A DNA stretch of 64,000 nt from Haliclystus octoradiatus (Eukaryota; Cnidaria; Staurozoa; Stauromedusae; Haliclystidae). Position numbers and translations under genes: made by a program. Below the pieces are notes generated by a model. That model made no database searches, was not told the DNA's origin, and saw only the letters and a program-made list of their open reading frames with translations. Of this stretch, positions 191 to 33,977 are shown one piece after another (the stretch's first letter is position 1; every line of letters begins with the position of its first letter). The stretch is from contig OU744450.1 in assembly GCA_916610825.1 (NCBI GenBank), positions 26,332,350 to 26,396,349 on the forward strand. The letters are read 5' to 3'.

Positions 191-429
191 TTTTCATTTG
201 AGAATTGTTATTCAAAAATTACAAGTGTTTAAGAAATTATGTACTTAAAATAAGAAAAAAATGCTTGCATGCATTGATTTTGAGAAAAAATTGTCTAATT
301 TTGTCTAGTGTGAAGCAGAAACATTTTCTGTGTCAGATTTTGAAATGGCCCCTTCAGAACGTCAATTAACATCCTATAATTATATTATACAAAATTATAA
401 ACTCGTCCAAGGGAGCAAAAAGAACCTAC

Positions 430-2501
430 CTTGAATGATTGTAAAAATGTCCATAGCAGAACACGAATCGTGTAACCACGACGAAGTAGTTTCACAAGAC
501 GAGCAGCACGAAACAATCGAAAGAGACTGGGATCGAACGGAATTGTATCTGGTGCCTGTAAACGAAAAAGAACGCTTAATAATAGATCCTCATTATAAGC
601 AAGCAGTTTTGTAGTGTAATGGTTAGGAAATTGGACCTCAGCCGGCAGGGTTCATTCTCTGGCAGTAGTACTATAGGTTGGCGTCAGGAAGGAAATAAAT
701 TGACTATTGAACACACACACACTTGAAAATACTTATCAGTTAACCAGTCACCCTAGCGGAAGAAGCATATTGCTAAAGCCCTGTTTTTTGTATGTATAGT
801 GAGAACTAAAATAATAAAATAATAAAATAGCATGAAATCAAATTGAAAATATTGGCAAGAGTATATCTCAATACCTCCGCATACAGTCAAACAAAAAATG
901 GATGCCTCAGAAATAATATTTGTAAAACCTACAGCATGGGTGGGTACCCTGTGGTTACACCATAAATTACTAAATCTAGCATGTTTCCTGTCTACAAAAG
1001 AACCCTCTCTGCTGTTTATTCAGAAGCCAAAGTATCTTGGCTTATGAGTTCATTGTTGAAATTGTAAAATTTATAGTTATGTGATCGTTTCGATGACCCA
1101 CATGATATACCCAGGGTACACCTTATATAATCATGCGTAGAGAGAAGAAAAAAGAGAGGGCTATACAGAGAAAAAGAGTATCTTTCGATGATATTGGATG
1201 ATTTATTACAGCACCCGAGCGTTAATTCTGATCATGTGATACTCACCATTGTCTTTGAAAAGACATAATCAAGTAAACTGCCAAGTACAATGATGAAATC
1301 AAAAACATTCCAACCGTCACGAAAGTAGCTCTGGAAAGTTAGAAAAACAAAACACGTAATGACAATGACATGACACTATCACAGAGTGACAGTACGATAG
1401 TGTGGCAGAGTGATGGTAGGACCTTATAAATGTAGACAATGTCAAAAGTAATACCGTAAGTGAATAACATCATGACAATTGACTATGAATTATAACAACA
1501 ATTCCGAATAATTTACCTTTCTGAATGCAAACAATTTCAAAACACATTCACCAGTGAACATGAAAGTAAATATTTCATTGAGAAGATCGAGAAAGTTTCT
1601 GTATTCTTTTGGTTCATTGTTAAACTGTGAAGTCAAGTAACATAAAAGCCTTATAAATATATATACTATTAACACAGGGAAGATGGTTGTACAATATTTC
1701 AATATACTGTACCATGCTTGACTAAAGTCGATTAACACTGATTAACATTAATTGATACATATATATATATATTAATTTTTGTCCGTGAAGCAAATGTTTT
1801 TGTAATTAGCTTAGTTTATATTACTCGTTGTCACATTCGTTGACAACCCAGTCTCAGTGTCTTTTTGCTATACGAATAAGTATAGTGCTTTAATTAAGTA
1901 AATGGAGCACATTTCCATATGCATAGCTATATGGCGCACGAAAGGGCACGTAAGGAGAAAACGAGAAGGCATCAGAAACTCACCAGCCGCAGGAGCGGCA
2001 AATGATTTTCCCTTTGCAGTTTTCTTCTGCATAAATCGAATGCACCCTAAGCCATGACTCACATGGACTGCAAGCCAACTTTCTTGTAAATAACTAGCAC
2101 GCTGTTATAAACTTTTGCATTATCTTCTTATAAAAGCAAGGTGATATATTTTTAAAGTCCTAATCAAATTGGAAATTCTCAATGGTGACGGAAACTTCGA
2201 ATTGTAAGTTTTACCGCGTTTTAGAATTCTGTTTCGTGTTTATGTGATGATCTGGCATCGTATCTCTAAACCAATCAGATTGATAGAATCAATTTCATTA
2301 TAACATAAACTATATTATATACCATATATAACTTACCTTCAACATGAGAATCATCGTATTACCAGCAATGAGAAACATGATGAAATATTCAAATGGCGAA
2401 GAATCCACTAATTGCCACACTTTGTATTGTAACGTGTTTGGATCTTCTGGCATAAACCTTTCGACTGGTTTTGCAATCATAGCGAAACGAAGACAATCAC
2501 G
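430..2501 (-). CDS. Cav2: III-IV linker and domain IV S1-S4 (window edge)
   Basis: Exons, minus strand: 2501-2337 (III-IV linker and IVS1, [14 protein letters not shown]), 1624-1517 (IVS2, [16 protein letters not shown]), 1330-1247 (IVS3, [18 protein letters not shown]), 555-430 (IVS4, [16 protein letters not shown], then [15 protein letters not shown]). The last donor is AAG|GTAGGT at 429. The next exon (S5) is not found in bases 1-429, so the gene continues to the left. Confidence 0.93.
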
Positions 2502-14500: not shown

Positions 14501-17500
14501 TTTTAATATTTGATTTCGACGGCATTATTCTGATTCTTTCAAGTGAAAAGTCCATACCATGTGAACTTAACATCCTAACACAATGGCAAACCAAATTGCA
14601 TTATCTACAAATTGATTTGTACGGAGATAATTAGCAGCAGGAAATAAAAACCTTACCTAAATCAACAATGTAGCCAAAGCAGTTCAATAAGTATATGTGG
14701 GCCTTATGGTTAGGTCATTGGACCTCAGCCCGCATGATCTTGAGTTCATCCCTGGCAGAAACACTATTGGTTGGCGTCAAGAAGTGTATCCGGCCAATAG
14801 ACTCAACCGCGCTCCAAGAAACTTCGAGTATTTCGCTGTGAGTCCAAGCATCACAAAGAAGGTGTATGAAAATGTCGAAACGTCGCAATAAAACATGATT
14901 CATTAGTGCTCCTATACTGTATTTGAAATTTCATAGAAGAAACAAACCTTGTAAATTTGAACAATCGAAGTAAACGCAATGCACGAAGTACAGAGATGCC
15001 CATGCTTATACCATATAACTCAGAAACGATTAATTCAAAAACACCAGCACAGACAACCTGATAGAAAAGATAAAACATCACCATAATAATGACACCAATT
15101 TTCAACATTTTATCACAGTTTATCAGCCAACAAAATAATTAATTTCGTTTCCTAAAGAAGAAGCGAGTACTAACAATGAAGTTGTTGACGTTCATAAGTT
15201 GTACACAATTCTATATTGATTCTCAATGTCCATTCTACTTGTATGGCATCGAGCCTTATTAAAACAGCAAGGACAACATATTTTATAATTATACATTATT
15301 ATGTAGCTAATAATAAGCCTTGTATGACGTGATGTAATTTATGTTCAAATAGTTTATTTGTAAGTTTATATATTTTTTATGTTACTACATATCATTTAGT
15401 AGAAGTTAAACACCAGGCCTTTTGGGGTCCGCAGTACGGCCCACACAGTTTTTCTAGTTTGCTGTTGCATTGCTTGGAGGCGTGGCGTTAGATACCGCAA
15501 GGAATGCATGCACGGGAATTGCCTCGTACGAAAGCTGGCATTGTATGGCCAATCTCTTGTCCATGGCATAGGGTAAGTCTTGTGACATAGTAGGGCGTAA
15601 TCATTCTTGCATGTGCTAGCCTGCTAGTAAGTAAGACACGAACGAACGATAATCAATTGAAATTACTATTTAGTTATGCCTCGACTTTCACGTAATAGTC
15701 GCGATGCTAATGCTTCTGCACCTTATGTTATTCCTGCGGCTTCTACGCTGCAGTCTCCTGTTCAATCACCGTCTTTTACAACTTTCTTTGGAGATGCTCA
15801 ACAACGTCAGAATTTTGTGAATGATGTGGCACAGGCGGTCGTGGCAGCATCAAGACCTCCAACATCAACGTCGGTAAGCGCTTCTTCAGCTGGTACCGTA
15901 CCTACAGTGAACGTAAACATGGATCAAGGTATGTCAGAACCTATATCTTTGCCACCATTTGTAAATACTTTCTCCTCTCCGCTTCCCAATGGTGATGCCG
16001 TTGCAGCTGCCTCTGCCTTTTTATCGGGTACTTCGGTCATCAATCAACAGGAGAATACGGCCACCACCAGCAGTCCATTGCCAACATCGTCGCTAGTGTT
16101 TGCACCGTGTATCATAGGACCTGGGTACGCCCCTATTCCTTCAAAATTGGTAGGTCAAATTGTCAGTGGTCGTTTCGTAGACCTGGCAGAACTGTTGTCT
16201 CCCTCAGTGGTGGATGTCGAAGCTGAACCTCAGTTGATCATGGATGGTCTAGCGGTTTTGATTGCCAAGCCCAAATCAAACCGTCGTAAGATCGACGACA
16301 TCGTAGGATGGATAGAGGCGTTCACGATTTATACGTCTATTATGACTACTCACTGCCCTGAACGCTGGAAAGACTTGTCGTCGTACAAACTGGTTATTAT
16401 TAAACTCTTTCGACAATTCAGTGGCTGGGCATGGTTGTCGTATGACACAGCCTTTCGACAACATGCCTACGCTAGTCGGTTATTTGATTGGTCACTGATC
16501 AACAACCAACTTTACACTTACCATACGGCTGGAGCAGCTGTCCGTCCTCGACTGGATCGGAACCAACAGGAAAAAATCAGTAGAGAGGCACGAGGTACCC
16601 CCAATGGCCCACGAGTTTGTCCTTCATGGAACGAAGGAAGATGTTCCTCGCGTTATGCAATTTGCCGATGGAGCCACATTTGTTCTACCTGCTCAGAAGG
16701 GCATCGCAGTATGGACTGTCCTCGAGAGTCAAAGCAGTTCATCGCCCCAGCTACGATACCTCCAGTCAAGGCCTCTGACGGCAGGCAGTGGCAACGGCGT
16801 TAACTCGTTGACATGTTACTTTAATATTTTGTGTTTTATAATAATTCTGCTATTGGACGTGATGATTCAGCAAACCATCAATTGTTAGCTAAATTTATAT
16901 TCACTGTGTTCACAGTCCTATTCTGTAATTATTGTGTAGCTCACTTTGTTTTTCTTGTCATTATTACCATTGTTTGTTTTTTTTCTTTACTGTTGGAATA
17001 TTTTACTTGCAATCGATACAGTTCAGTTTTTATTTTTAATTTAATTTTATTTTTAATTTTCGTCTGTTTGTTTGAACTTTGATTCGTAAGTTGCTTTTAC
17101 CATTAACGTTAAGAGCCCTTCGAAAAGCCACCACTTTCGTCTGTCCAATTCAGGATCTTGCTGTTTATAGTAAAAGGCCAGTCAATAGGAAATTCTTTTT
17201 TATTTATTTCCAGTTCCTCCTATACAAAAATATATAGAGGTGGTCTGTCAGCACAGTTTCGCAGCTATACGCTCTGTTATTTAACAAGACTCAAGTTGAC
17301 TGGTTCTAGAGCGTATTAGATGTACTGAGGCTTTCTTTATATTTATATCGACGACATGCGATCGAGTTTAGGCATTAATACATTTTCGTACGATGGTCTC
17401 TTTTATAAGGCAATATAATCCCAGTTCGTCCGACAAGGTAGACCAAACGAAGGTTACGTTTGAGCAAGTCGTCTATTTTCGTCCAACAAGGCACAACGTC

Positions 17501-18188
17501 ACGGACAAATTAAATGTTACTAGAATACCTGACTTTCATCTTCACCACGAAGACAAATAACTCGGTAGATGTGTGAGTGAAAATTTAAGGCAATCCAACG
17601 AATTGTATGGTCGAGAGGCTTATTTGATAATCAATAATTGCGATAACTCGAGCGATATTAGTAGATTTGATAACGCAAACTAAGAATTTTTCAGCAATAT
17701 TTGTAGCTCCATCTGATTGGTTCCTCAAAGCTTTTCAAGATTCCGATTGGTTGAGACAACTCTCCTTTGTTTCTGTAGTGTTGATGCATCAAGATTGTGT
17801 GAAAAATTTAACAAATACAAGTACCGCCGATACAGGTTTTTGTCTGTCAAGAAAACCGGATTGGTACCGAAAACCGTCACCGGTTTCATATCGGATTCCG
17901 TGTCGGTTTCCGTATGATTTTTTTTTTTTTTTTTACTTCCTTTGTCAAATGTTCATCTCACGGTTCTTATCATTATTATAGTTAGTAATTTACTTTAAAT
18001 TTTTATTTATTTTTTTTTCATTATTACTTTTATTTTATGATGATCTTCTAAGTTTTATTTATTTTTAATTTATTTTTAATTAATTTATTTTCTTTTATTT
18101 TTTTTTGTTTTTTATTATTTATTTTTTATTTATTTTTTTTTATTATTTTTTTTTATTTTATTTATTTATTATTTATTTTTTATTTATT

Positions 18189-18228
<40 letters not shown>

Positions 18229-21200
18229 CCCAAGTTTGCCTATTACCTTCAATGGCACAGACGACATTAGAAGGACTGCTATTAACCTTTCATGACTTTA
18301 TTTATTTTTTCTAGCCTGCTGCATTTTGCCGCCGATTTCCTCAATAACTCCTCTGAAAGCGGATCGCTTTGCCTATTATTTGGCCTATCATCCTAATCCT
18401 CATTTTACCAATTATGTTGTGAATGGTATCCAAGCAGGCTTCAAACTTGGTTTCAATCATCGGCAGAGTCTGAAACCAGCCAAAAAGAACAATCAGTCAG
18501 CCCATAAGTATTCTTCAGTAATTGACGCTTACTTGAGTAACGAAGTACAATTAGGAAGAGTGGCTGGTCCTTTTCGCAATCCACCGGTTGAAGGAATTCA
18601 AGTCAGTAGCTTCGGTGTTATACCTAAGAAGAACCAACCCGGAAAATGGCGTCTTATTGTGGATTTATCAGCACCTACAGGTTTAAGTGTAAATGATGGC
18701 ATCAACAAGCTGGACTTCAATTTTAATTATGTCCAGCTAGATCAAATCATATCAATGGTGAAAGATCTCGGTGTTGGGGCCTTGATGGCTAAGTTCGATG
18801 TTGAATCGGCTTACAGGAACATTCCGGTTCATCCAGACGATCGGTTTTTGTTAGGTATGAAATGGCGAAACAACTACTTCATGGACTTGACTCTTCCATT
18901 TGGGCTGAGATCTGCACCATTCATATTTAATTCGGTTGCCGAAGCAGTTGAATGGATTCTTTCCTACCACTTTCATGTGTCAAATATTGTACATTACCTG
19001 GACGACTTTGTCATGGCAGGACCAGCCAAATCAGATATATGTCTTCGCCAATGGTCTCTAGCCCAAGAAGTTTGCAAGGAATTGGGCTTACCACTGAACC
19101 CTAAAAAATGTGAAGGTCCGTCCACGTCTATGCTGGTTTTGGGAATTGAATTGGACTCGGCAACTCAGACCGCTCGTCTCCCAGCAGACAAACTGGCCAA
19201 CCTTCACTCCTTGATTCAATCTTGGGTTCTTAAGCAAGGATGCAATCGTAACCAATTGGAGTCTTTAATAGGTCATCTACACCACGCCGCTAAGGTAGTG
19301 TGGCCAGGCCGCACATTTATACGTCGGATGCTAGATTTACTCAGCTGTTTTCGATCAAGACGCCATCCAATTCGACTGAATCAGGAGTTTCGACAGGATC
19401 TGTTCTGGTGGCGTGACTTTCTTCATCAATGGAATGGAGTCAGTTTTTGGTTATTTCCAGGAATGCCTACTGACTCTAAGTTTGAAATGTTTTCTGATGC
19501 TTCAGGTCAGGCTGGGTATGGGGCCTACTACCAAGGAAACTGGTTTAATGGTCACTGGACTCCTTATCAAGCAAAGCAATCAATCGCTTATAAAGAACTT
19601 TTCCCCATTGTAGTGGCAGCACACACATGGGGTTCAGACTGGACACGCAGCCAAGTCCTGTTTCGTTGCGATAATATAGCAGTGGTTCATATTCTTAATT
19701 GCAGGACGTCCAAGGTTCCAATAATTATGCGTCTTGTAAGAAACTTATTATTTGTTGCAGCCAAATTGAACTTTTCTTTCTCTTCACAGCACATTGCTGG
19801 AGTCAACAACGGGATTGCTGATGCCTTGTCTCGTTTTCATTGGCAGGCATTTTACAACAGGGCACCCACAGCCAAGAACCATCCAATGCAGCTCGACAAC
19901 CAATTATTGATGAAGTTGGCTTGAATCATCTGGAAAGAAAGTATCAACTTTTCATGGCAAACAGTTTGGCCCCTTCAACTAGACGCACCTACGCCTCAGC
20001 CCAACATCGGTTCATAGCATTCTCAGCGCACCTGGGTCATGCGACTCCATGTCCAGCCAATGAATCAATGCTATGTTCGTTCGTGACACATCTTACAGAC
20101 TCACTAAAGCTCCCTTCAATCAAGGTATATTTATCGGCTGTCAGAGCGCTTCATATTGAGCAAGGTTTTGCAGACCCACTACTACATTGTCCTCGCCTAC
20201 ATAGACTATGTCAAGGAATCAAACGATCTCAGATCAACAAAACAAATCCTCGGGTACCAATAACGGACTCAATTATGAAAATTATTCATCAGTCATTAAA
20301 TCTGCTCCAGGACGACCACATTATGTTTTGGGCGGCCTGTACGTTGGCCTATTTTGGATTTCTTCGGTCATCAGAATACACAGTAACAAATTTGCTAAGT
20401 TTTGACCCTGCAATTCATTTACAGCCTGCTGATCTATCATTTGATTCACAGTCAACACCAACTTGCATGCGGATTCGGATCAAGGCATCAAAGACGGATC
20501 AGTTTAGACAAGGTTGCTACATTCATATCGGCCTTGGCTCATCCAGTATCTGTGCTATTTCAGCAATGTCAGCTTACCTTCACAAGCGAGGTGATAAATC
20601 TGGACCTCTTTTCCTTCTTTCATCTGGTCATCCCTTGTCTCGTAACTACCTGTCCAACTGGCTGCGCTCCATATTAGTGGATAATCAAATTCCTGGATAT
20701 TTCTCAACCCATAGCTTTCGAATTGGGGCTGCAACAGTGGCGGCTCGTAATGGGATTCCAGATCATGCCATCAAGGCAATGGGCCGCTGGCGTAGCCAAG
20801 CTTATCAGCTGTATACAAGGACGTCTCCAGCATCGCTGTCAAGCTTCTCCCAAGTCCTATCATAGATTGGGTTCTTAAGAAATTGCTGCTGTTTGGTGCT
20901 TGGACATGATGGGGTGGGAGTTACAGACGAGGAACCTGTACCTCCTCTCCAAGCACACTGGAGACAATGTTGGGGGAAACAGATTAGCACGAGCTTAGCT
21001 GCCTAACGAACGAATGAGTAACTCCCACCAACCAAGCACCAATCCCAAAACCCCACCAAAGGGTGAGGAGTTTAAATGTTACTACATATCATTTAGTAGA
21101 AGTTAAACACCAGGCCTTTTGGGGTCCGCAGTACGGCCCACACAGTTTTTCTAGTTTGCTGTTGCATTGCTTGGAGGCGTGGCGTTAGATACCGCAAGGA

Positions 21201-24200
21201 ATGCATGCACGGGAATTGCCTCGTACGAAAGCTGGCATTGTATGGCCAATCTCTTGTCCATGGCATAGGGTAAGTCTTGTGACATAGTAGGGCGTAATCA
21301 TTCTTGCATGTGCTAGCCTGCTAGTAAGTAAGACACGAACGAACGATAATCAATTGAAATTACTATTTAGTTATGCCTCGACTTTCACGTAATAGTCGCG
21401 ATGCTAATGCTTCCCAGCCCACCCTCACCATAAGTCAATAGGTCATGTTTGTCAAGTTTACTTTAAGTAGCTACAGATTAACTTTTATTTCAACAGGGTA
21501 GTTGTAATTTTTCCACTGATTATCAGTGTGACGGTGCTTGGTTCGAGTGGGGGAAACAGGTTAGCACGAGCTTAGCTGCCTAACGAACGAATGAGTAACT
21601 CCCACCAACCAAGCACCAATCCCAAAACCCCACCAAAGGGTGAGGAGTTTAATTATTTGTAAAAAGAAACCATAACATGTATTTTTGTACAGGCTATGGG
21701 GATTTTAATTAATATACATTTTAATTTACACTGATGTGCAGCCTAATGAGATTGCTTACAGTAACTACTTAAATCAAACTCATCCAATCTTTAAACTAAA
21801 ATTTTCGAAGGAAGAAGAGGTCACAATGTCTTCCGTTAATTAGTTCCATAAGGGAATTATGGGAGGTACTTCAAGGTGATTGGCACTTTATTAGTTATAT
21901 GTTGTAATAAACAACCCGTTGTATTAGGGATGATTTTCATTTTGATATAAAATATTATCACAAGTTGTAATTTTTCTTAAATTGACTTTATTTTTGACTC
22001 ACAATAATATTGTTAATACAGTCCTCTTTCGGTCAGAACAGTTCCTGTTTTATTATAGCATGGTTAGCATAAATATATTATAAACTTCTGTTTATCCATA
22101 CTTTGAATGTTCATGCTATCATTATCACGTGATATTGCAATTACAGAGTATTTAACCAATAACAAGTGACTTACCACACAATCGAATGTATTGAATTGTG
22201 ACTTGAAATAAAGATTGGGTCCAATACCATATAATTTTAAACACATTTCGAGAAAAAATCCAGATATAAACACTAATTCGGATATACCTAAACAAAATAG
22301 AAAATGATAAAACAAATGATACATAAATACAACTATAAAGTAGAAAAAAAAATTACAAAGTAATTTTGACAATCTTGAACTTTATTGACTTGTGACTGCA
22401 ATTCCACAAACAAAAATTGTACAAGTCTAAAGGTTTTAAAAGCTTATCATCAAAAAAGCATCTCAGTTTACGAATAAAAACAAACATGAATTTCTATTGT
22501 TTTGAATATATTTATTTGACAATTCCAATAAGAACTCTAGATCATACCATCTAAGACTCCATCTAAGACTTTCAATTTGCTGATACCACCTCTTAATTCA
22601 TTTTTAAATGAAATAAGCACATTTTACATTTATCCAACTTAAAAAGTCCAATCGAATGGTGGGAACAAGGTGTAGCAGGAGAACCAAAGGCCCCATTCAC
22701 GCTCCAGGAAAATCACCCCATTTACATCCACTGTCTATAGGGCGGTTCTTGACAGATGCTTTAAAGCTATCCTGTATTTGCCAGTCAATGTTTTCATTAA
22801 ATAAACTACACACATAATAATTAAATAATTTAAAATGAATCGAACACAACTGTTATATTGTAGATAATTAACCCACTTACTTTGAATATCTGTTATGATC
22901 TGTGGTTGACGATAATGCTGTACAGCAACAGAAGCAGTATTAAGAAACACACAACAAATAATAAGCCAGTAGAATGCTTGATGCTTAACAATTCTTTTGA
23001 CACGAAGTCGCCATACTTTATTAACTCTTTGAAAACGTTGCCATCGTGTTTCGCTAATTGGAGGAAAAGAAGCACTCAGTTGATATGCAAACGAAGTATA
23101 ACATGGGGAAAATGAAAAAGTATTTGCCTTTATTCAATCTTTTTTACTTGTTGCAATTTGTCAATTTCATGTATGTGTCAACAATCAGCATTTTTGTTTT
23201 GTAAGTCGAAATCGATTGAAAATTGGAGATAAACAATCAAGTGTTGCTCAAAACAAGAAATTTTAACTTGAAACGAAAAAATATGGTCCAAAACAAGCAA
23301 AATATTCTTGCAAGACATTAATATAGTCTTCCTGCATGTGTTTTATAATCTATCAAACGACGAAAAAAACTTTGTGGAAGTTTGTTGATATGCAAATTAC
23401 AGTCAATGATCAAGTCACCGTGCTTCTATTACATGCACAACAATGTGTCATCGTTACGCAATTTACATTTACAACGAATGAGACCATTCCTTCCTATTCT
23501 ATATATATATCCTTCGGGACATCTTACATGGAAATGAAGACAATCTCACAGACCTTCATATCAAAATGAAAATTTAGATTTTACAAAAGCAAACACAAAT
23601 AACTCTTGTAGCCATTTGATCACCATGGAAGCAGTCGAACTTGAATATGTGTAAATACATTTACATTATACATTCGGGAATAAATAAAATAACTTGATCA
23701 GAACTTTCAAATTTCATACATTTGCTAATAAATGCAAGTAGTTGTACGTTATTATTCGCAACGTTTGGACTTTGCACTGAAGCCATTCTCAAGTTAAAAT
23801 TACATTATAAGTTACCTATATGTCTATATGATTAACTGACCTAGAAATATTATGTTAAAAGTCAATACTCGAAATCGTACTGTAATAGATAAATAGTCCC
23901 GCATTAGTACTTTCTTCACATATTAATAAGTAGGGATGGAAGCCTGTTCTAACTCGTTATAATGATGGACAGCGAAAATTCCAAGCTCCGTTAAATGGAA
24001 AATATGTTCGCGTAGGGGCATAGCGAGATCATACGTATATATGTATATTGATATACAGAGGAATCCGGCAGTAACGGTACGCTAGGCAGACAAACCATTT
24101 TACCGGTTTTGCCAGAAATCGTTGTTAGCGGTAAATATTTAGCAAAGTTTGAACGTAAATTACTCATTCAAGAAAATTTTGGTTTACTGTTATTCACAGA

Positions 24201-27200
24201 ATACCGTTGAACCAGGAATCATTGTTCCCGGATTTTAATGTATTCGAATATCGGAGCCAATTGGAGATATTGATTACAACATAATGATTGAGATATCTTC
24301 AGATCAAAAGATTCTTGATTCTATATGCTACTCACGTCAAGTTTAATCGACATTGTTTTCGTGTTGATCCACCTCTAGCTAAAACATTTGTCATTCCAAT
24401 ACTTCCATCTTCTAGTTTTAAAGCTTTGTCTTTTTTACTCATTTTTTTCACTAGAAGATAAAAAGTTTGTTAGCCCCTTAAATCAGTGATGGTAACCCCT
24501 CTGGATAACTCTCTATACAAAAGAATAAAAGGGGTAGCCACTTTTAGAAAACCCCAGTACCCTCGATCTCCTAGATGGATGACCCTTTTGGGAAAACCCA
24601 GTACCATAAACGTTCCCAAACGAAGAAATATAAAACCCACAATCTCCTAGCTAGATGGATGATTTATTTCATTAAAATGTTGGCAGTTATTTGGGTATTT
24701 AATTAATTTTCCATAGCAAAATATTGATCAATTCTTCGAATGATAAATATGAAAATGTAGCTGAAAATTTTAAATTCTTTGAGAATTTGATGCCCATTAT
24801 GTTGTCTAATTTGTGATGACGGCATATTACTTCATTATTGTAGCCATTGAATACTATGCATCATGCAGCCCATATTGTTGTGCAAGTTTTGTCACGTTCA
24901 GAAAAATTGAAAAAGAGAACTATATATACAATACAACCATGTATATGACAAACCAGAAAATTAGTTAATAGTCCAGGGTTGTATAACTTTTTTCGTATAA
25001 GGAGACGTCCAGTTATTAAAGGTTATGTTTTACAAAATTACAAAAAAATGATTAAGGAATTATTCACCATCAACATTTTCTAAAGTATGCTTTTTGACTT
25101 CAATTTGGTCAATTTTTACCTTTTTTCTCATTTCTTTTTTGCACAAAATGTTTTCTTATTTTTGAGGTTAATATGTATTTTTCAAATATATTCGGGGTAT
25201 CTTTTTCATGGTATTTTTTATGGTCATTCTATCAAAGTTCAAAATGAACAACCCCATCGAAGTCCAATTTAAGTTACCTTCGGTGTAAACTCTATACCAG
25301 ATTATCATCATATTACTCCAATTTTAATTGTAAACTCCACATTTATTTCATTTAATAGTAAAAAGTTGTAGAAAACACATGCAAAAAATTTAACACTTTT
25401 ATTTGTTTCCATAATTTCAATACATACGTTCTTCTGCTTCTCGTTGCTCTTCTTCAATTAACACTTCTTCTGCTCGATTGATCCAATTCATGTAACCATC
25501 TAAGGCACGATCAACCTGTTGGTTCTGCCTCAGTTCCAAAAAGGCACGACGATTTTCCACACGTTCTCTTTCTTTAGCAAATTCACTAAAAATGATTAAA
25601 AACAAAACAAAATTAAATTAATAACAAAAGTTAGAATAGAGTAGGATCGGATGTTTATCGTGATTGAATCTCTAACATTTTCTACTGGAATATATCTTGC
25701 AATGGAACTTATGAGAAGTTACAATAATAATTGTAATTCTGTAAATGTTATAATCCACAACTGCAAATGATTAGCAAAGAAGATGTATTATAGAAAAATG
25801 ATGTGTATTTTACTCCTGATTGTAACAGTAAAGGTATGGCTCCCATTTTAATCGTGGACAGTCGGGAAAATGATCCTAAATCTTTATTTGAAACTATTTG
25901 ATTTAAAATTTGTATTGTGGTTTAAAAATAAATGTATTTTGAGTTTATATTGATACCAGATAGAATGTCGACTAAACTTACCCACTGAGTACACCAAGAA
26001 CAAGATTCAACATAAATTGTGCTCCAATGATATTCAATGTATAGTAATACATCCAAAAGAACACGCCGTGTTTGTCAACAACATCAAATGTCTAAAATTT
26101 AAAATAAATATGGAATATAATATTATCATGTTTGCTACTCTTTCAAGTTTCACACCAACGCGAACATCAGGCAATGTATTCAATACATTGAGAGTCCAAG
26201 ACTAAATGTACATATACAGAAATATGATGATAATTCTCAAAATATCATAACATGTTTATATTTAAACATTCTTATGTATGTACAACACCAGAAGGACGTT
26301 ACTGCTTTTAGTACCCCCTCATCAGCATGCAATACTATTTTGCGCATTGACAATCGAGACCTTTCTACCATGAAATCTGTTGAAATTTATCTGCAGTGTT
26401 GCAGCTGAGACGGGGGGGGGGCTGAGATCATTAAAGAGCGTTTAAAATCATTGATATCAGCAAAAGAGCCACTCCTAGAAATATAGGCGTGGTACGGGTG
26501 CCTTCGGTAGGGCAATACCGTCTGCGTTACTTTTATTAGGTGTTACACATGACAAGATTAATAAAAAGAAAATCTCGTTGATCAAATAGGAGACAATCAT
26601 CGACATCCAAACTCCCTTAGTTATAATTGATCAATGTACTCTGTAATTGAATGGCTGCATATGCTATAGTTTTTGAATTCAGTTAAGATTAATATTAATA
26701 CATCAATGTTATAGTTAGTGTGAGAGTATATATGTAGAGATAAGCAGGTTAATCCTTGATTGGATTATCTAGGATAATGGTAACAATCTGATTGGATTAA
26801 ATGTCTAGTTTGATCTATAGAGAACATTCAACTCAAAGTAGGACGTGCGCAAATTCATTTCAATTATGCAAATCAAATAAGTCTCATGGTTCCTGAAACA
26901 TCACGTTTCATACATTGAATTTTGATCCTTCTCTAGCCTAACCCTGATTTCGAGTAAACCGATAATTGATAACGTGATTGACTGTTCTTTTTTATACGAA
27001 TAGTTTCTTGCAAGTGTGTATAGCATATACTAGCAACTAAATCTTTGTTTTTCAAATCCTGTTGGTCGTAAAAATGATATTACAGTTGAATGGGGACGCT
27101 TTTCCCTCAATTCACTCCTACATATGTACATATATAGTATGCGTAATATGTACATAGAAATTTATTTATTTTAATTATATATAGCAAAGTTCTTGTAGGT

Positions 27201-30200
27201 AATGAAAATCAGCAATTGTTAACATTTAGTCCCATTTTAAATGAATATTTTATCAAGTAAAATTATTTCAGATATTGAACATGTAAATTACAGTCTAAAA
27301 TATTGCCAAAATAAAAGACATGCTTCGTGTTTTATTTTTATGTAAATATCTCGGATGTGTTGTACATCAAAACCATACGTTCTTTGATTGAAATTAGAAT
27401 AAATAATATTTAGGTGAATTATGCTGACATATGCATAAACCCTATGCTGTAATTGGCGGTACATATGACCGGCTGTCAAACAAATGGCAAATATTTACTT
27501 CTCTTGCACTAACATGTTGTTTTCTCAAGTGTGTCATTGATAACGAAGACTAACTTCATTTGGGGTAGTGATGTGTTTGAAACGATGATGATGATGTATC
27601 TCCATAAGAAAAAGTCACACTATGACATACCATGTTCGAAAACTTGGTGCACGCTGTTTAATTTTCCTATTAGTGGAATTCATTTGAACGGAATATCCCT
27701 TACATCAAGATTTTCGGGATGTAAAACCTATTACTGATCGTGAGCCGAATTGAGTATTATATAGAGCGCATGCCCAATAGGTATTTTCAAGTCAAACATC
27801 GAATTTGGAATAAAATATTTTGCAGACTGGAAATAAGTATAAAACTGTGTCGAATTTGACAGAAATATGCCTCGTTATCATATAACATGCCTCTTACCCA
27901 ATACATTGTATCAGTCCATCCTTCGCACGTGATACATGTAAATACGGTCAACATTCCAAGTAACATATTATCAAAACTAGTCATTCCGTTGTTTGGTCCA
28001 GTCCATGCCATTTCGCAAACAGTACCAGCAGGACATGATAAACCGTTTTTATTACTGCAAAGACGATCAGCCTCGTAGATTTCTGAAAATTAAAATAGAG
28101 CTTTAGTTATTTAATTCATAAAACTTTTGTTTAAAACAAATATCAAAGTACACACAGAAATTGTTTTAATTCTTGTAAGAATACTTTGCTTGAAACAAGA
28201 CAGTGTAATATAGCTCGTATGTCAATGCATTTAAACATTCCTATTATTTAATTGATTGGCTTTGCTTAATTAATTTGATCCAAAATGCTTGCAAGTTTGA
28301 CATAATAAACAAAATCTTCTTAAGCGAAGAATATCGACCTTGCATCAAGTAAAATATTATTGAAAATGTCGTTTGAACTATTTCTGATTGAGTTGGAATC
28401 CCTTTGAATGCATAAGCATGTTTGGCTTGATTTAAGAAAAAATGATCTTTGATTCAGAATTCCAAACATTTCTAAATTGCTCATCCAAAACGCAAAATTA
28501 TTAATTTGATGGGAAGTGACATTTTTCTTGAAGCAAGCAAAGACCAACTTTCATCAAGCAGAATCTACTTGAAAATTGCATAGCAATAATCAAATCAATT
28601 ATGTGACATTACAGCCAAACATTGATAAGAAATTAGTATTTTTGTGATAATAAAACTTGTAGCTAATAAACCGTTATTGTTTCGGATTATGTAATATAAA
28701 AGGATCATTTCTTGAAATGGGTAAAAACATAAACTTTCTTGAACAGATGAATCATAATTAAGGTAATGGTTATGGTGCCGGCTGACGGCCAGGCTGGATC
28801 CAATGGCGCAAGCATTCTTCTGGCAAGGGGGCTCTTCCCTGCTACGAGGTTGATGTGTATACCCCCTGTTTCTCTCTGGCGCCATCCATGTTTAGGGCTG
28901 ACGTTTTTCGGTAGAATAATGTGTAGCTGTTAATGTACTTACGTTTCGTTCCATAGTAGACACAAGTTTGATGAAATTGCCCACATAGAAATTCTAATCC
29001 AATGATTGAATAAATGACTATAACGAAGCCAACAAGCAAACAGATCTGTAACAAAGGGGCCATAGCACGACCAATTGATTTCATAACGACTTGTAAACCT
29101 ATTTTTGAATTAAATGGATTGTTAGACACATACGATATCGGATTGGGATTAAATAAAAATCGGATAATGAGATCGAATTATTTGGATGTCAACATCTTTT
29201 ATACAGTCAGTTGTAACTTATGTTAGAAAAAGGCAGAAAGGGTTAAAAAGAGAAAATAAAACTTTGAAAAAAAAGTTGAAAGAAAAAATAAAAACAGAGA
29301 ATTCGGAAATGATCAACTGAACAAGCAGAACAGAAAAAGTCGAAAAGAAAAATAAGTAGCAAATTTCATAACTGATGTACATCAAATAATGTGAATTACA
29401 GTCCAATGTCATTGCGAGAATAAATGTTACTGATACAAGCAGCTTATTAAATGCATATTTTAATTTCACAAGGAGATTGATTTGCACAACCTCATTCCCT
29501 TGTGTCATCATGATAAGGAGAGCTAAATATCATCAATGACATATAAAGAGCAATAATGATCAAAATGAACCGAGTACAAATCAAGCCCATTCCAGTATCC
29601 ATTCTGGTCACGCAGTGCATTTTTGAGTGCATCCGAATTTTAAGACATGTTGAAGCATGCCAATTTTACATAGTATATGTAAACGATAACACTAAACGTG
29701 GTTATCGTCACTGTCTCGAATGCTCTGTAATTCACTATCATAGATCATAGTGTTACAACACACATACATATAGCATGTATTACTAGATGACAGTATGACG
29801 GAGAGTTGGACAGTTGATACCATGTATACCATCACTAGAGCTAAGTAAGAAAGATATACTACAGTTTCACCCCAACCGTAACCTACATTCACGCAAAATA
29901 TGCTCAAAATAGCCAACTCATAACTTTCGGCACATTGGCTCAAACATCATATTTTTGGCAAATGTCAGGCTCATACAACTCAGAAATGAATATTTGCAAA
30001 TATGATAAAAATAGCAAACTCATCATTTCTGCCTATGAATCATTCAACGCCCGACAATCAACATACATAACAATGCATCACTATTAATTCTACTGATTCG
30101 ACGATTGAGTGGCATGTATATCGTTATGCCAACATTGACCTGAATTTTTCTACACGTTATTATCAGTCTTATGGCAATATTGTCCGCTGATTTGTAACGC

Positions 30201-32919
30201 GAGTGCATCGAAGTTAAAAACTGATGCAACATCAATCCAAAGCTAAAGTTTGGTTCCACGAAGACCACGCATATGCATGTACCCGCAAGTAATGTACTGC
30301 AGATTGGATATTAACGAATCAGTTCCTTATATCGTATCATACTGTTTTATAAATGTTGATAGATACATTAAGCATTCGAAGCATTATTCGATAGGTTGTT
30401 ATACTACAAGACAGAGTTGTGAATCGTCACTGATCAAGCCTGTCTTCACTGACTTCTGTGCAATTGAATGGCTGTCCAAACAACTTCTATTATTAGAAGC
30501 TGATTTATCCAGTGCATTTCAAGCTGATAACTCGTCTACATTATCTCCGCGATTGTAGATTCTGTCAGCTCTGAGAGGGACTGCCGACAGCTTCTAGGCA
30601 ACGTCAAGTCAATGCTCAGTTTTTGCGTATGCATATAAACGCAAACGAAGGCGACGAATGTTACATCGCTCAAACAAAACCGCACGTTGGAAACTAGGCT
30701 GCTTTTCTGCAGATGTGAAGTCAATTATGCATTGATTACGAAGAACAAAGTCGCCGGTAAGGCGTCAATTTTTATGTAAGGGATAATATCGTAATGATCC
30801 GTGAAAACTCAAAACATGTTCATCAGAATAATTGATAATTCAATTCTGAATTAATACGTTCTGTCTACTCAGCTACAACACAACCTGATATACTGGTCAC
30901 CTGCATATAACAACCACTTCTATGTATATTAGAAAGGCCTGACTATCACAGTCAACTTCTCTAAATCCCATATCAGTTCTTTATTCAAAGTTTCACAGTA
31001 TCCTATTTCCATACCGTGAATTATAGCTATGCCATTATAATTGCATTTGATGTGACCATCGTCATTAAATGCACGCATCATCACGTAATCTTCTACTAGC
31101 AACAACAACAACTCCCTTCAACATGTCAACCACTGCCATTTTGATTACAAGGCATTAGACTACACAATGAATAATCAAGCCACTAGTTTAACCTCTTTTT
31201 GATGAATGCTGCAACAAGTCTGATCCAATAGCAGATCACATAGACATTCACACATTAGAGGCTATCACATAATGGTATGTCTGTAGCACCTACTTGGAAT
31301 ACCAGATACCAATTTAAGTGGTCTTAATACACGACCAGCTCTCAAGGCTTTGATACTGCCTGCATCGAAATCTAATCTCAATTCTGGTAGACTGATGAAT
31401 CTGTAGAATAAAGAAGAAAAGAAAATATTCAAAGGCATATTAGTATAGCTTTGTTTTTCGATTTAACCTCTTTCACATGCCAGTCTGTTTGTTTTGTTGT
31501 TTGCAAGATGTGACATCCTTTTCTTTACGCCTCGTTTTCATACTTACTTGGAATCCCGGATACCAGTTTTAGAGGCCGAAGAACTCTGCCAGCTCGTAGT
31601 GCTTTTAAAGCCCCGCCTTTCAAACCCACATTTAACTCTGGCATGCTCAAAATGCTAAATTCAATAAACATGGTATTCAAATAATTTAAATTTCACATAA
31701 TAGTTGCAAATGATAACCTATGAATAAGGGTCAGTGAATAAACATGAAATATAACGTTAAAAACAGATACTTAAAATCGTATCTACAATTGTCAGTTTAT
31801 TGGGAGTACTTGGTGTTTATTATAATCCTATTTACTTAAGGACAAAATTAGATTGGACCGTGATAGAGAATTGCAAAGTAGTGAGGCTCCATTAATGCTT
31901 TAAGGGTGTTTGAAATAGTCGGATCACGAAACTGGGCTTCATTAATGCTATAAACAATATATTTTCATAATTGATCTTGGCTTGATGTCTCTTAATACAA
32001 CGTGAAAATATATGAATACAAAATATTGTTCAAGAATTGAAGCCTGGTAAAGTAAGGTCAAAATAGATCATATGATGTATTTGAACGAAGAAAGATTTCA
32101 CTGTTTCTTGGACTGCGCAGTAACTTCCAAATGGTTTGCAAACACGGACGTATAATTTGAGGTGTACACATATTTGGTTGTAAAAAATTTTCTAGGGGTA
32201 CTTCGAAGGATTATTTCAAATATCGAGTTTGAAGCTCTCTATAAATCCAAAAATCTTGAACATGTAATACATCTCAATAATATTTCGAAGCTCACAAATC
32301 TTGAAGCATAGATCTCAGATTTTTTGGATATATTTCAAAAGCTTTACTATATGTAATGGAATAATAGGCGTAATCCAGAGAAACATGATATCGTGCTGCA
32401 GGAGTTCAGTCAGTTTTCCATGTAAAGATACGTAACGAGTTTGTAGACTTATAGTAAGCGTGACAAATTGTATTGCTTAAAAATGGCTGTTTTATTTCTC
32501 AAAATTTATTGTAGACAGACGCTATAGAAAGATGAAAATGAATTCAATCTTAATCATTCGTTGTGTTTACATCTTACCGGATTAAAATTGTTGTTTCTAT
32601 TGCACGCACTATGACCTCAGTGTGAACAAGTGATTGTTCACATTATATAAACGACTTACCCGGTTACAACAACGACAAAATCTAGAATATTCCATGAGTT
32701 TCTTAGATATGAGCCAGGATGCATTATAAAACCCAACGATATAATCTTTAACAATGATTCCACACAAAATATACCTAATAAATAAATCTCGGTTTTTTCC
32801 TAAATAAATACAACAACAAAACAATAAAAAATATAGAGTGATATTCAATGAGTTTAAAATCCATAACAGAACATATTTGTTTAAAGATATATAAATATAT
32901 ATAGCAACAGACAAGTACT

Positions 32920-32951
<32 letters not shown>

Positions 32952-33977
32952 ATAAATATAATAGATATTATCTAATAGCAAAAAATAGTGCTCGATGTCA
33001 TTTGACCGAACTAAATATAATAAAAGGAGTCAAAGACTACACATTCATAATTGTGTATTCAGAATGTGTAGTCTTTGACTCCTGTTATTATACATAAATA
33101 TATGAAAAAACTTACCAATTCTCTGTTTAAATTCGATTTATCTTCAGATGGTAGTGGAGTATTCAAAGCCAATAAAATACAATTGACGAAAATGGTGAAT
33201 AAGATAAAATATTCAACAGGCTGATTACAATGTTAAGGTCTGCATTATAAATACAATATAATATTCTATATATATATATATATGTCATCATATCACACTT
33301 ATGAACTAAAAATTATTTCATTAATCAATAACAAATAATAATCTTTAAGACAAACAAAAACAAGACAGTGGGTTATGATTATCAACAATACATGCTCTTA
33401 TCGATTAAATCGGACAGTACCTTTTTAAAACGGAGAAATTGTATAGCATAAAATGGTCTTGAAAAATTAAGATTATTTAATACTTTAGATGATAAATAAT
33501 AATCAAATTTATATAGGTGAAATATAATTTGGTCAAACGTTTTTGATCATAAAATAAATCGCATGACTTCAGTACATAATTGCGCGTACATAGATGTGAA
33601 GAAAAGGTTACTTCATTTATAGCAGAAAGCTAGTTTAGTTATCTAACTCAGAAGTACTAACAAATAATTAACGTAAACATTTCTCAATCAAGCCCAATCT
33701 GAATAATTTCTCAAAACTTCACTTTTCTCTCAACATCAATTATTATAACTTTTTACATTAATAATATACATTTTTATTAATTGAAAAAGGATACTTTCGA
33801 TTCTGAGATATATCGGCAAAATTTCCGAATAAAATTGTCTTCAGGTAATATGAATAAACTTTTATATTTTTTACGAGCCGGTCCAGATATTTTTTGTAAC
33901 GATGAACTGCCGACGGACTGACTCCCAGCTGCAGAAAATGTCGAAGCCCGACGACTCATATCATCTTTTGCTTGCAT
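430..33977 (-). CDS. CACNA1 (Cav2-type): Voltage-gated calcium channel alpha-1 subunit, Cav2 type (3' end beyond window)
   Basis: Pore-forming subunit of a high-voltage-activated calcium channel of the plasma membrane, the class that drives transmitter release. Thirty-two exon positions in consistent phase sum to 3,732 nt (1,244 codons), with one position a choice between two exons. The selectivity glutamates of three pore loops are visible: CEGW (I), GEDW (II), GEGW (III). Cav2 rather than Cav1 is indicated by the start of the I-II linker ([14 protein letters not shown]), a domain II S4-S5 region reading [16 protein letters not shown] in domain III, and the III-IV linker ([14 protein letters not shown] then QYKVW). 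The start ATG at 33977 is the first Met followed by the conserved [12 protein letters not shown]; an upstream exon cannot be excluded. Domain IV from S5 and the C-terminus are outside the window. The symbol denotes the family, not a particular vertebrate paralogue. Confidence 0.95.
605..700 (+). mobile_element. tRNA-derived SINE, copy 1
   Basis: An A-box-like stretch (GTAATGGTTAGGAAATTGG) is followed about 25 nt later by a B-box-like stretch (GGGTTCATTC), then GGTTGGCGTCAGGAAG. The same order is found at 14697-14800. It lies in the Cav2 intron 556-1246 and ends near an (AC)n run. Confidence 0.6.
3186..9775 (-). CDS. Cav2: distal II-III linker and domain III
   Basis: Exons, minus strand: 9775-9718 and 8865-8736 (linker), 7885-7756 (IIIS1, [14 protein letters not shown]), 6853-6794 (S2), 6284-6178 (S3, [14 protein letters not shown]), 5784-5679 (S4, [15 protein letters not shown]), 4895-4788 (S5), 4320-4268 and 4171-4126 (turret), 3808-3708 (pore, SSTGEGWP), 3387-3186 (S6, [19 protein letters not shown]). 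The whole II-III linker is only about 110 residues, against several hundred in vertebrate Cav2. I see no synprint-like region, as is usual for invertebrate Cav2. Confidence 0.92.
4593..4684 (-). repeat. tRNA-like sequence, probably SINE head
   Basis: The minus strand has an A-box-like CACTGGTAGCACAGTGG and a canonical B-box GGGTTCGATTCC in a T arm (CGGGG loop CCTCG). The anticodon loop would be 6 nt and the acceptor ends pair poorly, so a functional tRNA gene is unlikely. It lies in the Cav2 intron 4321-4787. Confidence 0.5.
6371..6445. repeat. Miniature hairpin element
   Basis: 75 bp with arms reading AATAGAGTCAATGACTACAC and its inverted copy around a 10-nt loop, next to (TA)n. It has the same core as the hairpin at 33018-33089. 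Confidence 0.85.
6629..6770. repeat. Foldback element with 58-bp arms
   Basis: The left arm (6629-6686, ATAAATGGAACAAAGATTAG to CGCGCTTGTGCG) and right arm (6713-6770) are nearly perfect inverted copies around a 26-nt loop, flanked by (TA)n. Both arms are in the Cav2 intron 6285-6793, ending about 24 bp from the IIIS2 exon. Confidence 0.9.
7495..7652 (-). mobile_element. Short TIR element, family A, inverted
   Basis: Minus-oriented copy in the Cav2 intron 6854-7755. It ends GGGTTTGACTGTA at 7652 and carries the internal words ATAGACAGGTGG and AAGAGGTGACC. Confidence 0.75.
8019..8190 (+). mobile_element. Short TIR element, family A
   Basis: It starts TACAGTCGAACCTGTTACAACGG; the right end is decayed near 8190. 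It lies in the Cav2 intron 7886-8735, about 370 bp from the inverted copy at 7495-7652. Confidence 0.7.
10293..10302 (-). CDS. Cav2 10-nt microexon in the II-III linker
   Basis: The previous exon ends in phase 2 (AC) and the next (9775-9718) opens in phase 0, so a coding piece of length 3n+1 is required between them. The sequence GGGTCGTGAG fits exactly. It is preceded by a roughly 45-nt pyrimidine tract ending TTGTATAG and followed by a GTAAGA donor. It adds T-G-R-E to the linker. This is inferred from phase and splice signals; no transcript was seen. Confidence 0.7.
10813..24450 (-). CDS. Cav2: rest of I-II linker, domain II and proximal II-III linker
   Basis: Exons, minus strand: 24450-24336 (basic I-II linker segment), 23053-22881 (IIS1, [17 protein letters not shown]), 22287-22175 (IIS2, [12 protein letters not shown]), 15057-14948 (S3-S4, [15 protein letters not shown]), 14360-14229 (S4-S5 linker and S5, [16 protein letters not shown]), 13045-12973 (pore helix), 12396-12273 (GEDW filter and S6 start), 10966-10813 (S6 end, [13 protein letters not shown], then an acidic [11 protein letters not shown] stretch). 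The donor of 12396-12273 is AATT|GTATCT. An earlier GT would delete part of the conserved GNYTLL, which the chosen site preserves. Confidence 0.92.
11086..11420. mobile_element. C-rich-ended short inverted-repeat element, family C
   Basis: About 335 bp. The left end reads CCCCGGGGGGTAACTTCC and the right end GGAAGTTACC followed by a C run, so the ends are inverted. It lies in the Cav2 intron 10967-12272. Internal words ACGTTCAAATATTAAAGGG and TCATTCTGCCAAAGTTCCAT identify the family. Confidence 0.75.
14697..14800 (+). mobile_element. tRNA-derived SINE, copy 2
   Basis: CTTATGGTTAGGTCATTGGAC, then TTGAGTTCATCCC and TTGGTTGGCGTCAAGAAG, aligned with copy 1 over about 95 bp. It lies in the Cav2 intron 14361-14947, close to the domain II S4 exon. 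Confidence 0.6.
15379..15716 (+). repeat. Direct repeat A1 of the tyrosine-recombinase retrotransposon
   Basis: The left terminal repeat begins ATGTTACTACATATC and ends within the first 14 codons of the gag-like ORF. It matches 21076-21413 over its full 338 bp as far as I can compare by eye. Confidence 0.93.
15676..16803 (+). CDS. Gag-like ORF of the retrotransposon
   Basis: ORF of 375 aa from ATG at 15676. The N-terminal half is rich in Ser, Ala, Pro and Thr. A middle segment (about residues 155-290) has a mostly ordered composition. The C-terminus has closely spaced Cys and His residues ([26 protein letters not shown]), a zinc-knuckle-like arrangement typical of nucleocapsid regions of such elements. 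It probably coats the element RNA. The family assignment rests on position and the Cys/His cluster. Confidence 0.75.
   Translation: MPRLSRNSRDANASAPYVIPAASTLQSPVQSPSFTTFFGDAQQRQNFVNDVAQAVVAASRPPTSTSVSASSAGTVPTVNVNMDQGMSEPISLPPFVNTFSSPLPNGDAVAAASAFLSGTSVINQQENTATTSSPLPTSSLVFAPCIIGPGYAPIPSKLVGQIVSGRFVDLAELLSPSVVDVEAEPQLIMDGLAVLIAKPKSNRRKIDDIVGWIEAFTIYTSIMTTHCPERWKDLSSYKLVIIKLFRQFSGWAWLSYDTAFRQHAYASRLFDWSLINNQLYTYHTAGAAVRPRLDRNQQEKISREARGTPNGPRVCPSWNEGRCSSRYAICRWSHICSTCSEGHRSMDCPRESKQFIAPATIPPVKASDGRQWQRR
16804..18325 (+). other. Non-coding spacer of the retrotransposon, T-rich
   Basis: 1.5 kb between the gag-like and RT ORFs with no supported reading frame. It becomes extremely T-rich from about 17920, with an uninterrupted T run near 18190-18228. 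It ends in a pyrimidine tract plus CTAG at 18311-18314, resembling a splice acceptor just ahead of the RT frame. Confidence 0.6.
18315..19924 (+). CDS. Reverse transcriptase-RNase H of the retrotransposon
   Basis: Frame of about 535 aa, open from just after a splice-acceptor-like CTAG (18311-18314) to TGA at 19922. RT fingers and palm are visible: [16 protein letters not shown], then [17 protein letters not shown] with the first catalytic Asp, [13 protein letters not shown], and the YLDD box ([10 protein letters not shown]). RNase H follows, with [13 protein letters not shown], a [11 protein letters not shown] helix with Glu, [11 protein letters not shown] with Asp, and [10 protein letters not shown]. 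No ATG precedes the RT fingers; the first in-frame codons are TGC, ATT, TTG. Expression probably needs splicing, read-through or a non-AUG start. Confidence 0.92.
19954..20865 (+). CDS. Tyrosine recombinase of the retrotransposon
   Basis: The frame is open from about 19840, overlapping the RT ORF, but the first ATG is at 19954, 30 nt after the RT stop. The protein from there is about 303 aa. An N-terminal DNA-binding region ([17 protein letters not shown]) is followed by the catalytic set: Arg in [11 protein letters not shown], Lys in [10 protein letters not shown], His and Arg in [14 protein letters not shown], Trp in MGRWRSQAY and the nucleophile Tyr in YQLYTRTS. This enzyme inserts the circular cDNA. 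All catalytic residues appear present. Confidence 0.92.
   Translation: MANSLAPSTRRTYASAQHRFIAFSAHLGHATPCPANESMLCSFVTHLTDSLKLPSIKVYLSAVRALHIEQGFADPLLHCPRLHRLCQGIKRSQINKTNPRVPITDSIMKIIHQSLNLLQDDHIMFWAACTLAYFGFLRSSEYTVTNLLSFDPAIHLQPADLSFDSQSTPTCMRIRIKASKTDQFRQGCYIHIGLGSSSICAISAMSAYLHKRGDKSGPLFLLSSGHPLSRNYLSNWLRSILVDNQIPGYFSTHSFRIGAATVAARNGIPDHAIKAMGRWRSQAYQLYTRTSPASLSSFSQVLS
20972..21652 (+). repeat. Right-end repeats B1 - A2 - B2 of the retrotransposon
   Basis: B1 is 20972-21075, A2 21076-21413 and B2 21549-21652, with 135 bp of unique sequence between A2 and B2. B1 and B2 both start GGGGGAAACAG and end GGTGAGGAGTTTAA. Upstream of B1, a segment (GGTGCTTGG, GGTGGGAGTTAC) is complementary to the inside of B1 (GTAACTCCCACC, CCAAGCACC), so the end can fold into a hairpin. 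Confidence 0.9.
24054..24242 (+). mobile_element. Short TIR element, family B
   Basis: 189-bp second copy in the Cav2 intron 23054-24335. It shares the terminal CCGGCA and the internal GTTGTTAGCGGTAAATATT with the 37681-37871 copy and is more diverged at its ends. Confidence 0.75.
24975..25282. mobile_element. Family C element
   Basis: A diverged copy with GACGTCCAGTTATTAAAGG and GGTCATTCTATCAAAGTTC in the same order as the 11086-11420 element, between Cav2 exons 8 and 9. The C run is lost. Confidence 0.6.
25428..25585 (-). CDS. Cav2 exon with beta-subunit interaction domain (AID)
   Basis: This 158-bp exon follows IS6 and encodes about 52 residues. It holds the alpha-interaction domain that binds the cytosolic beta subunit: [19 protein letters not shown]. 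The family consensus QQxExxLxGYxxWIxxAE is met at the glycine, tyrosine, tryptophan and isoleucine that contact beta. Where Cav1 has QQLEE and vertebrate Cav2 has QQIER (the QXXER motif used by G-protein beta-gamma), this protein has QQVDR. The arginine is kept and Glu is replaced by Asp. Confidence 0.93.
25428..33977 (-). CDS. Cav2: N-terminus, domain I and start of I-II linker (exons 1-8)
   Basis: Exons, minus strand: 33977-33795 (N-terminus), 33220-33116 (IS1), 32799-32660 (S2 to S3, with [13 protein letters not shown]), then 31654-31548 or 31400-31294 (S3-S4 loop and S4), 29098-28943 (S5, GLEFLCGQ), 28082-27898 (pore loop, [12 protein letters not shown]), 26091-25982 (S6, [10 protein letters not shown]), 25585-25428 (I-II linker). 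All have AG acceptors and GT donors, and their phases close. The turret has cysteines in [15 protein letters not shown], as in other high-voltage-activated channels. The S4 reads [12 protein letters not shown]. The exon 1 donor (AAA|GTATCC) is weaker than the others. Confidence 0.92.
26320..26545. mobile_element. Family D element, one arm plus centre
   Basis: It contains GCGCATTGACAATCGAGACC, CATGAAATCTGTTGAAATT and GGTACGGGTGCCTTCGG, matching one arm and the centre of the 43205 element. A G run (about 26415-26423) interrupts it. It lies in the Cav2 intron 26092-27897. Confidence 0.65.
28120..28590. repeat. Diffuse CTTGAAACAAG-type repeat
   Basis: Words such as GCTTGAAACAAG, TTCTTGAAGCAAGC, GGCTTGATTTAAG and CATCAAGCAG recur every few tens of bases in the Cav2 intron 28083-28942. 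Similar stretches occur at about 11830-12075 and 23195-23320 in other Cav2 introns. No unit boundaries are clear. Confidence 0.5.
31294..31400 (-). CDS. Cav2 domain I S4 exon, variant A (mutually exclusive)
   Basis: Downstream (3') member of the pair, separated from the first by a 147-bp intron. The acceptor is TCTACAG and the donor A|GTAGGT; length 107 bp with the same phase. It encodes [15 protein letters not shown], then the same S4 as variant B. The loop is more acidic than in variant B (RLDFDAG against NVGLKGG). Either copy joins correctly to exon 3 (ends ACC GG) and to exon 5 (starts GT TTA). Confidence 0.9.
31548..31654 (-). CDS. Cav2 domain I S4 exon, variant B (mutually exclusive)
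   Basis: Upstream (5') member of a pair. The acceptor is ATTTAG and the donor A|GTAAGT; length 107 bp. With the flanking split codons it encodes [15 protein letters not shown] followed by [14 protein letters not shown] and SGIPS: end of S3, the S3-S4 loop and the S4 voltage sensor. The phase (one nt in, one nt out) equals that of the second copy. 107 is not a multiple of three, so including both copies would shift the frame. Confidence 0.9.
33018..33089. repeat. Miniature hairpin element, second copy
   Basis: 72 bp with arms GGAGTCAAAGACTACACATT and its inverse, 27 bp from the Cav2 exon 33220-33116. A long (TA)n tract lies nearby at 32917-32953. Confidence 0.85.

Follow-up and report, generated by a model that had tools for sequence, protein, structure and literature searches.

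A tandem pair of IS3-S4 exons, probably spliced as alternatives, in a CaV2a calcium channel gene of the stalked jellyfish Haliclystus octoradiatus

Swapped exons for the IS3-S4 segment have already been described in the sodium channels of vertebrates and in the CaV2 channel of insects (PMC5811987, PMC11828482). In the vertebrate sodium channel (Nav) genes, an N exon without a linker aspartate is reported to precede an A exon that carries this aspartate, with a short intron between the two, and the N channels are more available after depolarisation; loss of the linker aspartate speeds the return from inactivation (PMC5811987). For Nav1.5, the reported exchange is from aspartate to lysine at position 211 (PMC3917359). 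The IS4A and IS4B exons of Drosophila cacophony (cac) are reported to be 99 bp long and to differ in 13 of 33 residues, and an I-II exon pair is also present in that gene; IS4 splicing shifts the voltage of activation, and of the two channel types only the one with IS4B arrives at active zones (PMC11828482).

Among cnidarians, the CaV2a channel of Nematostella is reported to be restricted to cnidocytes, but it is also expressed in 57 of 3709 neuronal metacells (PMC11405698). This channel, nCaV, inactivates at very negative voltage, so that stinging is blocked until hyperpolarisation; the main determinant of this strong inactivation is the beta subunit (PMC7250568). Splicing of the beta subunit is reported to tune this inactivation in Nematostella. 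The literature passages that we found describe no alternative IS4 exon in the alpha subunit of Nematostella CaV2a, and the open-access literature yielded no report of alternative IS4 exons in any cnidarian CaV2.

The exon pair and its gene

Haliclystus octoradiatus is a stalked jellyfish (Staurozoa, Cnidaria). The window, by which we mean the whole stretch of 64,000 nucleotides that was analysed, had been given a first-pass annotation that proposed duplicated, mutually exclusive exons for the domain I voltage sensor of a CaV2 channel. We drafted the gene by tblastn with two relatives and by fitting of the splice junctions. Exons 31-39 lie past the window start, in the locus L007, and the draft gene extends 6.9 kb beyond the window. 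The draft product has 1573 residues and the C-terminal sequence DDDWC; junctions 16 (II-III linker) and 38 (C-terminus) are uncertain, and exons there may be absent from the model. The features of the locus, in the order of transcription, are as follows.

1..33977, minus strand: portion of the CaV2a gene that falls within the window, with exons 1-30 of the 39-exon draft (tblastn and splice-junction fitting on P0001)
32660..32799, minus strand: constitutive exon 3 (IS2-IS3), ending in phase 2 after GG
31655..32659, minus strand: intron 5' of exon A, 1005 bp, in which no additional IS4 copy was detected
31548..31654, minus strand: exon A (upstream copy), 107 bp, 35 residues + (S), from the sequence and the codon table
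31401..31547, minus strand: intron separating A and B, 147 bp, GTAAGT...TACTAAT...CTACAG
31294..31400, minus strand: exon B (downstream copy), 107 bp, 35 residues + (S), from the sequence and the codon table
29099..31293, minus strand: intron 3' of exon B, in which no additional IS4 copy was detected
28943..29098, minus strand: constitutive exon 5 (IS5), starting GT LQVV
25428..25585, minus strand: exon 8, beta-subunit binding site (AID), in single copy (tblastn with P0001 and P0006 led to one place)

Among the protein matches listed, the best for this gene were cnidarian CaV2 channels. In a tree built from 53 full-length proteins over 1490 columns, the gene grouped with P0001 and P0003 with a support of 0.80, and the bipartition that sets CaV2a and its medusozoan relatives against CaV2b, CaV2c and the bilaterian CaV2 channels had a support of 1.000. 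For the Nematostella proteins, we infer from the C-terminal ends that P0011 (DDWC) is CaV2a, P0064 (SEWC) is CaV2b and P0046 (ETWC) is CaV2c; DDWC is not specific to CaV2a, being terminal in some coral CaV2b sequences too. Searches of the genome with two IS4-region queries detected two further CaV2 genes (L009 and L010), a CaV1-like gene (L011) and weaker four-domain relatives. In a domain-I tree, L010 was placed with CaV2c, and the placement of L009 was not resolved. These three HVA-type genes have one IS4 exon each within loci of 10 kb, in which the introns on either side are covered.

Several other elements were observed in and around the gene. A 75-residue open frame occurs twice (21096-21320 and 15399-15623, minus strand) within the 7.1-kb intron 11 of CaV2a, as a repeated element with no Pfam match, and a late CaV2a intron contains a long tandem repeat reading CYVML... 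(L007 5644-6291, minus strand). The next gene downstream on the same strand encodes the kinesin-associated protein KAP (L008 6483-7265, minus strand; PF05804, E 8.7e-77). At 46334-46618 (minus strand), an open frame, MAVAGDIQTWVDAVAFHDKGMYNES..., resembles by eye the start of a p67phox/NADPH-oxidase-activator gene; the Pfam scan assigned it no family.

Exons A and B are adjacent homologous internal exons for the IS3-S4 segment of a CaV2 channel, with equal phase and GT-AG ends. They are identical at 24 of 35 residues, and the 11 residues that differ all fall within the first 16. The 20 residues of the S4 end are the same in both (20/20), whereas S4 differs between the copies of the insect pair. 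By charge count over the first 17 residues, the loop has a net charge of +1 in exon A and -1 in exon B. The sequence confirmed the coordinates of the first-pass annotation, the length of 107 bp for each exon, the 147 bp gap, the GT-AG ends, the phase, the common 20-residue end and the synonymous difference of 13 of the 19 codons in the S4 stretch. When exon B was used as a query against the 262-Mb genome, exon A was matched with E = 1.6e-9, so that the match is not due to chance. No third IS4 copy of comparable score was present in the window, L007 or L008.

In the S4 half, pS between A and B is 0.87, with synonymous sites saturated, and pN is 0.05; in the loop half, pN is 0.43 (Nei-Gojobori). 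These values indicate that selection has maintained the identity of A and B; a recent gene conversion was rejected, in view of the 13 synonymously different codons within the identical stretch. The saturated synonymous sites and the unchanged S4 half likewise bear out the earlier claim of an old duplication with the protein under selection, and so both exons appear old and constrained. Tandem copies only 254 bp apart are an error-prone spot for assemblies, where a false tandem copy or joined haplotypes might imitate such a pair. We give this explanation almost no credence, since A and B have 65 of 107 bases in common, which is much too divergent for alleles, and the assembly is built from HiFi reads with a reported QV of 56.6 (PMC9975415).

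Splicing of the two exons

With either A alone or B alone, the draft 1573-residue frame stays open. Inclusion of both exons leads to a stop 7 residues past the A-B junction, which confirms the claim that joint inclusion breaks the frame, and skipping of both leads to a premature stop. The reading frame and the selection on the two copies therefore speak for the mutually exclusive IS4 exons of the first-pass annotation, the exclusive use being read from these two properties and not from RNA. We consider it likely that a single IS3-S4 exon of this cnidarian CaV2a gene underwent an ancient tandem duplication, and that each mRNA would include A or B through mutually exclusive splicing; this suggests a switch that would tune the response of the channel to voltage. 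Cells would then presumably use both exons and choose between them, and a double-inclusion mRNA would be frameshifted and then decayed, as a likely safeguard.

The splice sites of both exons were scored against the 35 other junctions of the CaV2a gene, with the 2 uncertain junctions excluded. In exon A, the donor is fair, at rank 11 of 36, and the acceptor is weak, at rank 30. For exon B, the acceptor ranks first among all 36, and the donor, at rank 31, is weak. The earlier description of good splice sites thus holds for the A donor and the B acceptor, but fails for the A acceptor and the B donor. Exclusion would probably operate by regulated splice-site choice that involves these two weak sites, and the use of exon A could be rare, given its weak acceptor.

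Exclusion of the steric type is reported for donor-branch point distances of <50 nt, and in a survey of human mutually exclusive exons, 60% of the clusters are reported to have frame-incompatible lengths, with steric interference considered possible for 9% (PMC5740500). The A-B intron contains a TACTAAT, a likely branch point by motif match only, at ~107 nt from the donor, beyond the steric limit of <50 nt, and at 40 nt from the acceptor. The shortest of the 38 introns of the CaV2a gene measure 96, 109 and 186 nt. Because the 147-nt A-B intron exceeds two other introns of the gene and the branch motif lies so far from the donor, crowding is unlikely to enforce exclusion, and we rejected the steric explanation. 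A docking stem between introns was also considered and set aside: 13 weak inverted-repeat pairs were detected, none of them convincing, in a single sequence in which covariation is not assessable.

The presence of one weak splice site in each exon would also fit a gene in which only A or only B is used and the other copy is silent or dying, and no Haliclystus transcript was recognisable among the matches listed in the protein searches (best 120 each, in part scored from a capped set of candidates; 26 and 13 of the 120 entries were read in two of these lists). An RNA-seq run of the species, ERR9434978, is listed with the genome (PMC9975415). Such single use seems unlikely to us, in that A and B both retain frame, phase and length as well as their GT-AG ends, and their 19 full S4 codons encode the same residues despite synonymous saturation, which is not expected of a dead copy.

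Relation to described switches and age of the pair

Like cac, the Haliclystus gene has tandem IS4 exons, here putatively alternative, in a CaV2 channel, and the same exon of the channel is duplicated in both. The first-pass annotation had considered deep conservation with cac, that is, a switch inherited from the cnidarian-bilaterian ancestor. An AU test does not reject this origin, with p 0.12 for a shared insect/Haliclystus origin and 0.55 for separate origins on 36 residues, which are too short to resolve the two; four constrained exon topologies and the free tree were all within the confidence set on the same 36 residues. The remaining comparisons do not support it, and we regard it as very improbable. 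In database isoforms from Anopheles and Agrilus, the insect pair is seen to have an altered S4 in IS4A (MLRSF, VSRIPS), where positive charge is added in cac, whereas A and B of Haliclystus have a common S4. The Anopheles pair differs in 13 of 34 residues, and the insect segments, at 34 residues, are two shorter than the 36 of Haliclystus; the cac exons are reported as 99 bp and 33 residues (PMC11828482), compared with 107 bp. In the best exon tree, the insect exons grouped with a mammalian CaV2 exon (support 85), and both CaV2 paralogs and the CaV1-like gene of Haliclystus are single-exon at IS4. Drosophila has the second, I-II pair, whereas tblastn with P0001 and P0006 found no second I-II linker exon in the Haliclystus CaV2a gene. 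The role of the cac exons was shown at fly synapses, whereas the Haliclystus gene is a cnidarian CaV2a.

The pair also resembles exon 5N/5A of the vertebrate Nav genes (exon 6a/6 in Nav1.5), in that the domain-I S3-S4 exon is concerned, the non-Asp copy comes first, and a short intron separates the copies. In Nav, the key site lies six residues ahead of the ALR of S4, where Asp is exchanged for Asn, Ser or Lys. When aligned on D-x-G-x-x-x-ALR, exon A of Haliclystus carries Lys at the linker site, and exon B carries Asp; the adult Nav1.5 sequence at the linker is TEFVDLGNVSALR, and we infer that residue 211 of Nav1.5 is the aligned linker Asp. The Nav case differs in that it concerns a sodium channel, was duplicated in early vertebrates and changes few residues, compared with 11 of 35 in Haliclystus. 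The linker site is Asp in 10, Asn in 7 and Glu in 2 of 19 CaV2a sequences, and it is Lys in 13 and Asn in 1 of 14 sequences of a medusozoan paralog group. Because the site is variable among CaV2a and its paralogs, the Nav parallel is suggestive only, and the charge swap may be less important than it seems, the site being weakly constrained in the 19 CaV2a sequences. The paralog group (P0017-P0030) is CaV2a-like, with ~1515 residues; P0017, P0022 and P0028 have a degraded beta-subunit binding motif, and a search with P0017 found no fourth CaV2 gene of this type in the Haliclystus genome. A 2004 study reportedly dealt with splicing near an S3-S4 loop of a CaV2 channel; that case is reported to concern a small optional exon of domain IV and differs from Haliclystus in not being a swapped copy.

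We also compared the two exons with the related proteins P0001, P0003 and P0129. The IS4 of P0001 is nearer to exon A (27 vs 23 of 36 residues), and those of P0003 and P0129 are nearer to exon B (31 and 30 of 36). Over exons 1-3, P0001 and P0129 share 102 of 117 residues, whereas of the first 16 residues of IS4 they share 5 (Fisher p 5e-6, which takes no account of fast loop evolution everywhere). In P0129, exon 3 is joined directly to the B-like exon, after which the sequence apparently reads into the intron; P0003 starts in an apparent intron directly before its B-like exon. Of the informative sites among the four exons, 4 join A to P0001 and B to P0003, 1 joins A to B, and 0 fit the third pairing. 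In addition, when 117 pairs of comparable overall identity are ranked by their identity in IS4, P0001-P0003 belongs to the lowest 5.

These observations would fit a pair that is old within Medusozoa, with A and B types already present in the common ancestor with the P0001/P0003/P0129 lineage, a proposition that we place slightly short of an even balance. The other 4 of the lowest pairs all involve the coral CaV2b P0041, which implies quick loop divergence or hidden switches there. Nematostella IS4 matches A at 29 and B at 28 of 36 residues, a near tie that makes the A label less secure; the topology tests reject no alternative, and P0001, P0003 and P0129 were compared as proteins. P0041 is ~83% identical overall to the coral CaV2b sequences P0042 and P0044 and 65% identical in IS4, possibly another hidden IS4 switch.

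Stinging and the response to voltage

A synaptic role had been suggested for the pair. The grouping of the gene with CaV2a, reported to be cnidocyte-restricted in Nematostella, weakens this suggestion and makes stinging, not synapses, the first functional guess; yet some neuronal metacells of Nematostella express CaV2a, and so a role in cnidocytes would not be an exclusive one. The alpha-1 gene concerned is orthologous to Nematostella CaV2a/nCaV (cacna1a), the channel that gates stinging there and sets its threshold by voltage-dependent inactivation, as tuned by beta-subunit splicing. The two Haliclystus isoforms would have the whole of S4 in common and would differ in the S3 end and the S3-S4 loop, with Lys in A and Asp in B near the sensor. 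We tentatively suggest that a loop switch beside an unchanged S4 would shift voltage dependence, and that inactivation or recovery from inactivation would be the property most plausibly affected.

The furthest reading of these data joins an exon switch, independent of those described, at the Nav-switched residue with a calcium channel of jellyfish stinging cells. In that scenario, which is a long shot in its entirety though far from absurd, the switch would be old in Medusozoa (Lys/Asn in the A type, Asp in the B type) and would set how readily the channel leaves inactivation, so that a single gene would yield stinging cells of a touch-ready and of a filtered kind, or would serve stinging cells and neurons alike. 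If the cnidarian case is true, there would have been three or more duplications of the same exon among four-domain channels, and splicing of the alpha subunit would join the known splicing of the beta subunit in tuning stinging. The A and B isoforms, which would differ in 11 residues and leave S4 unchanged, would offer a clean test in the ortholog of the Nematostella stinging channel.
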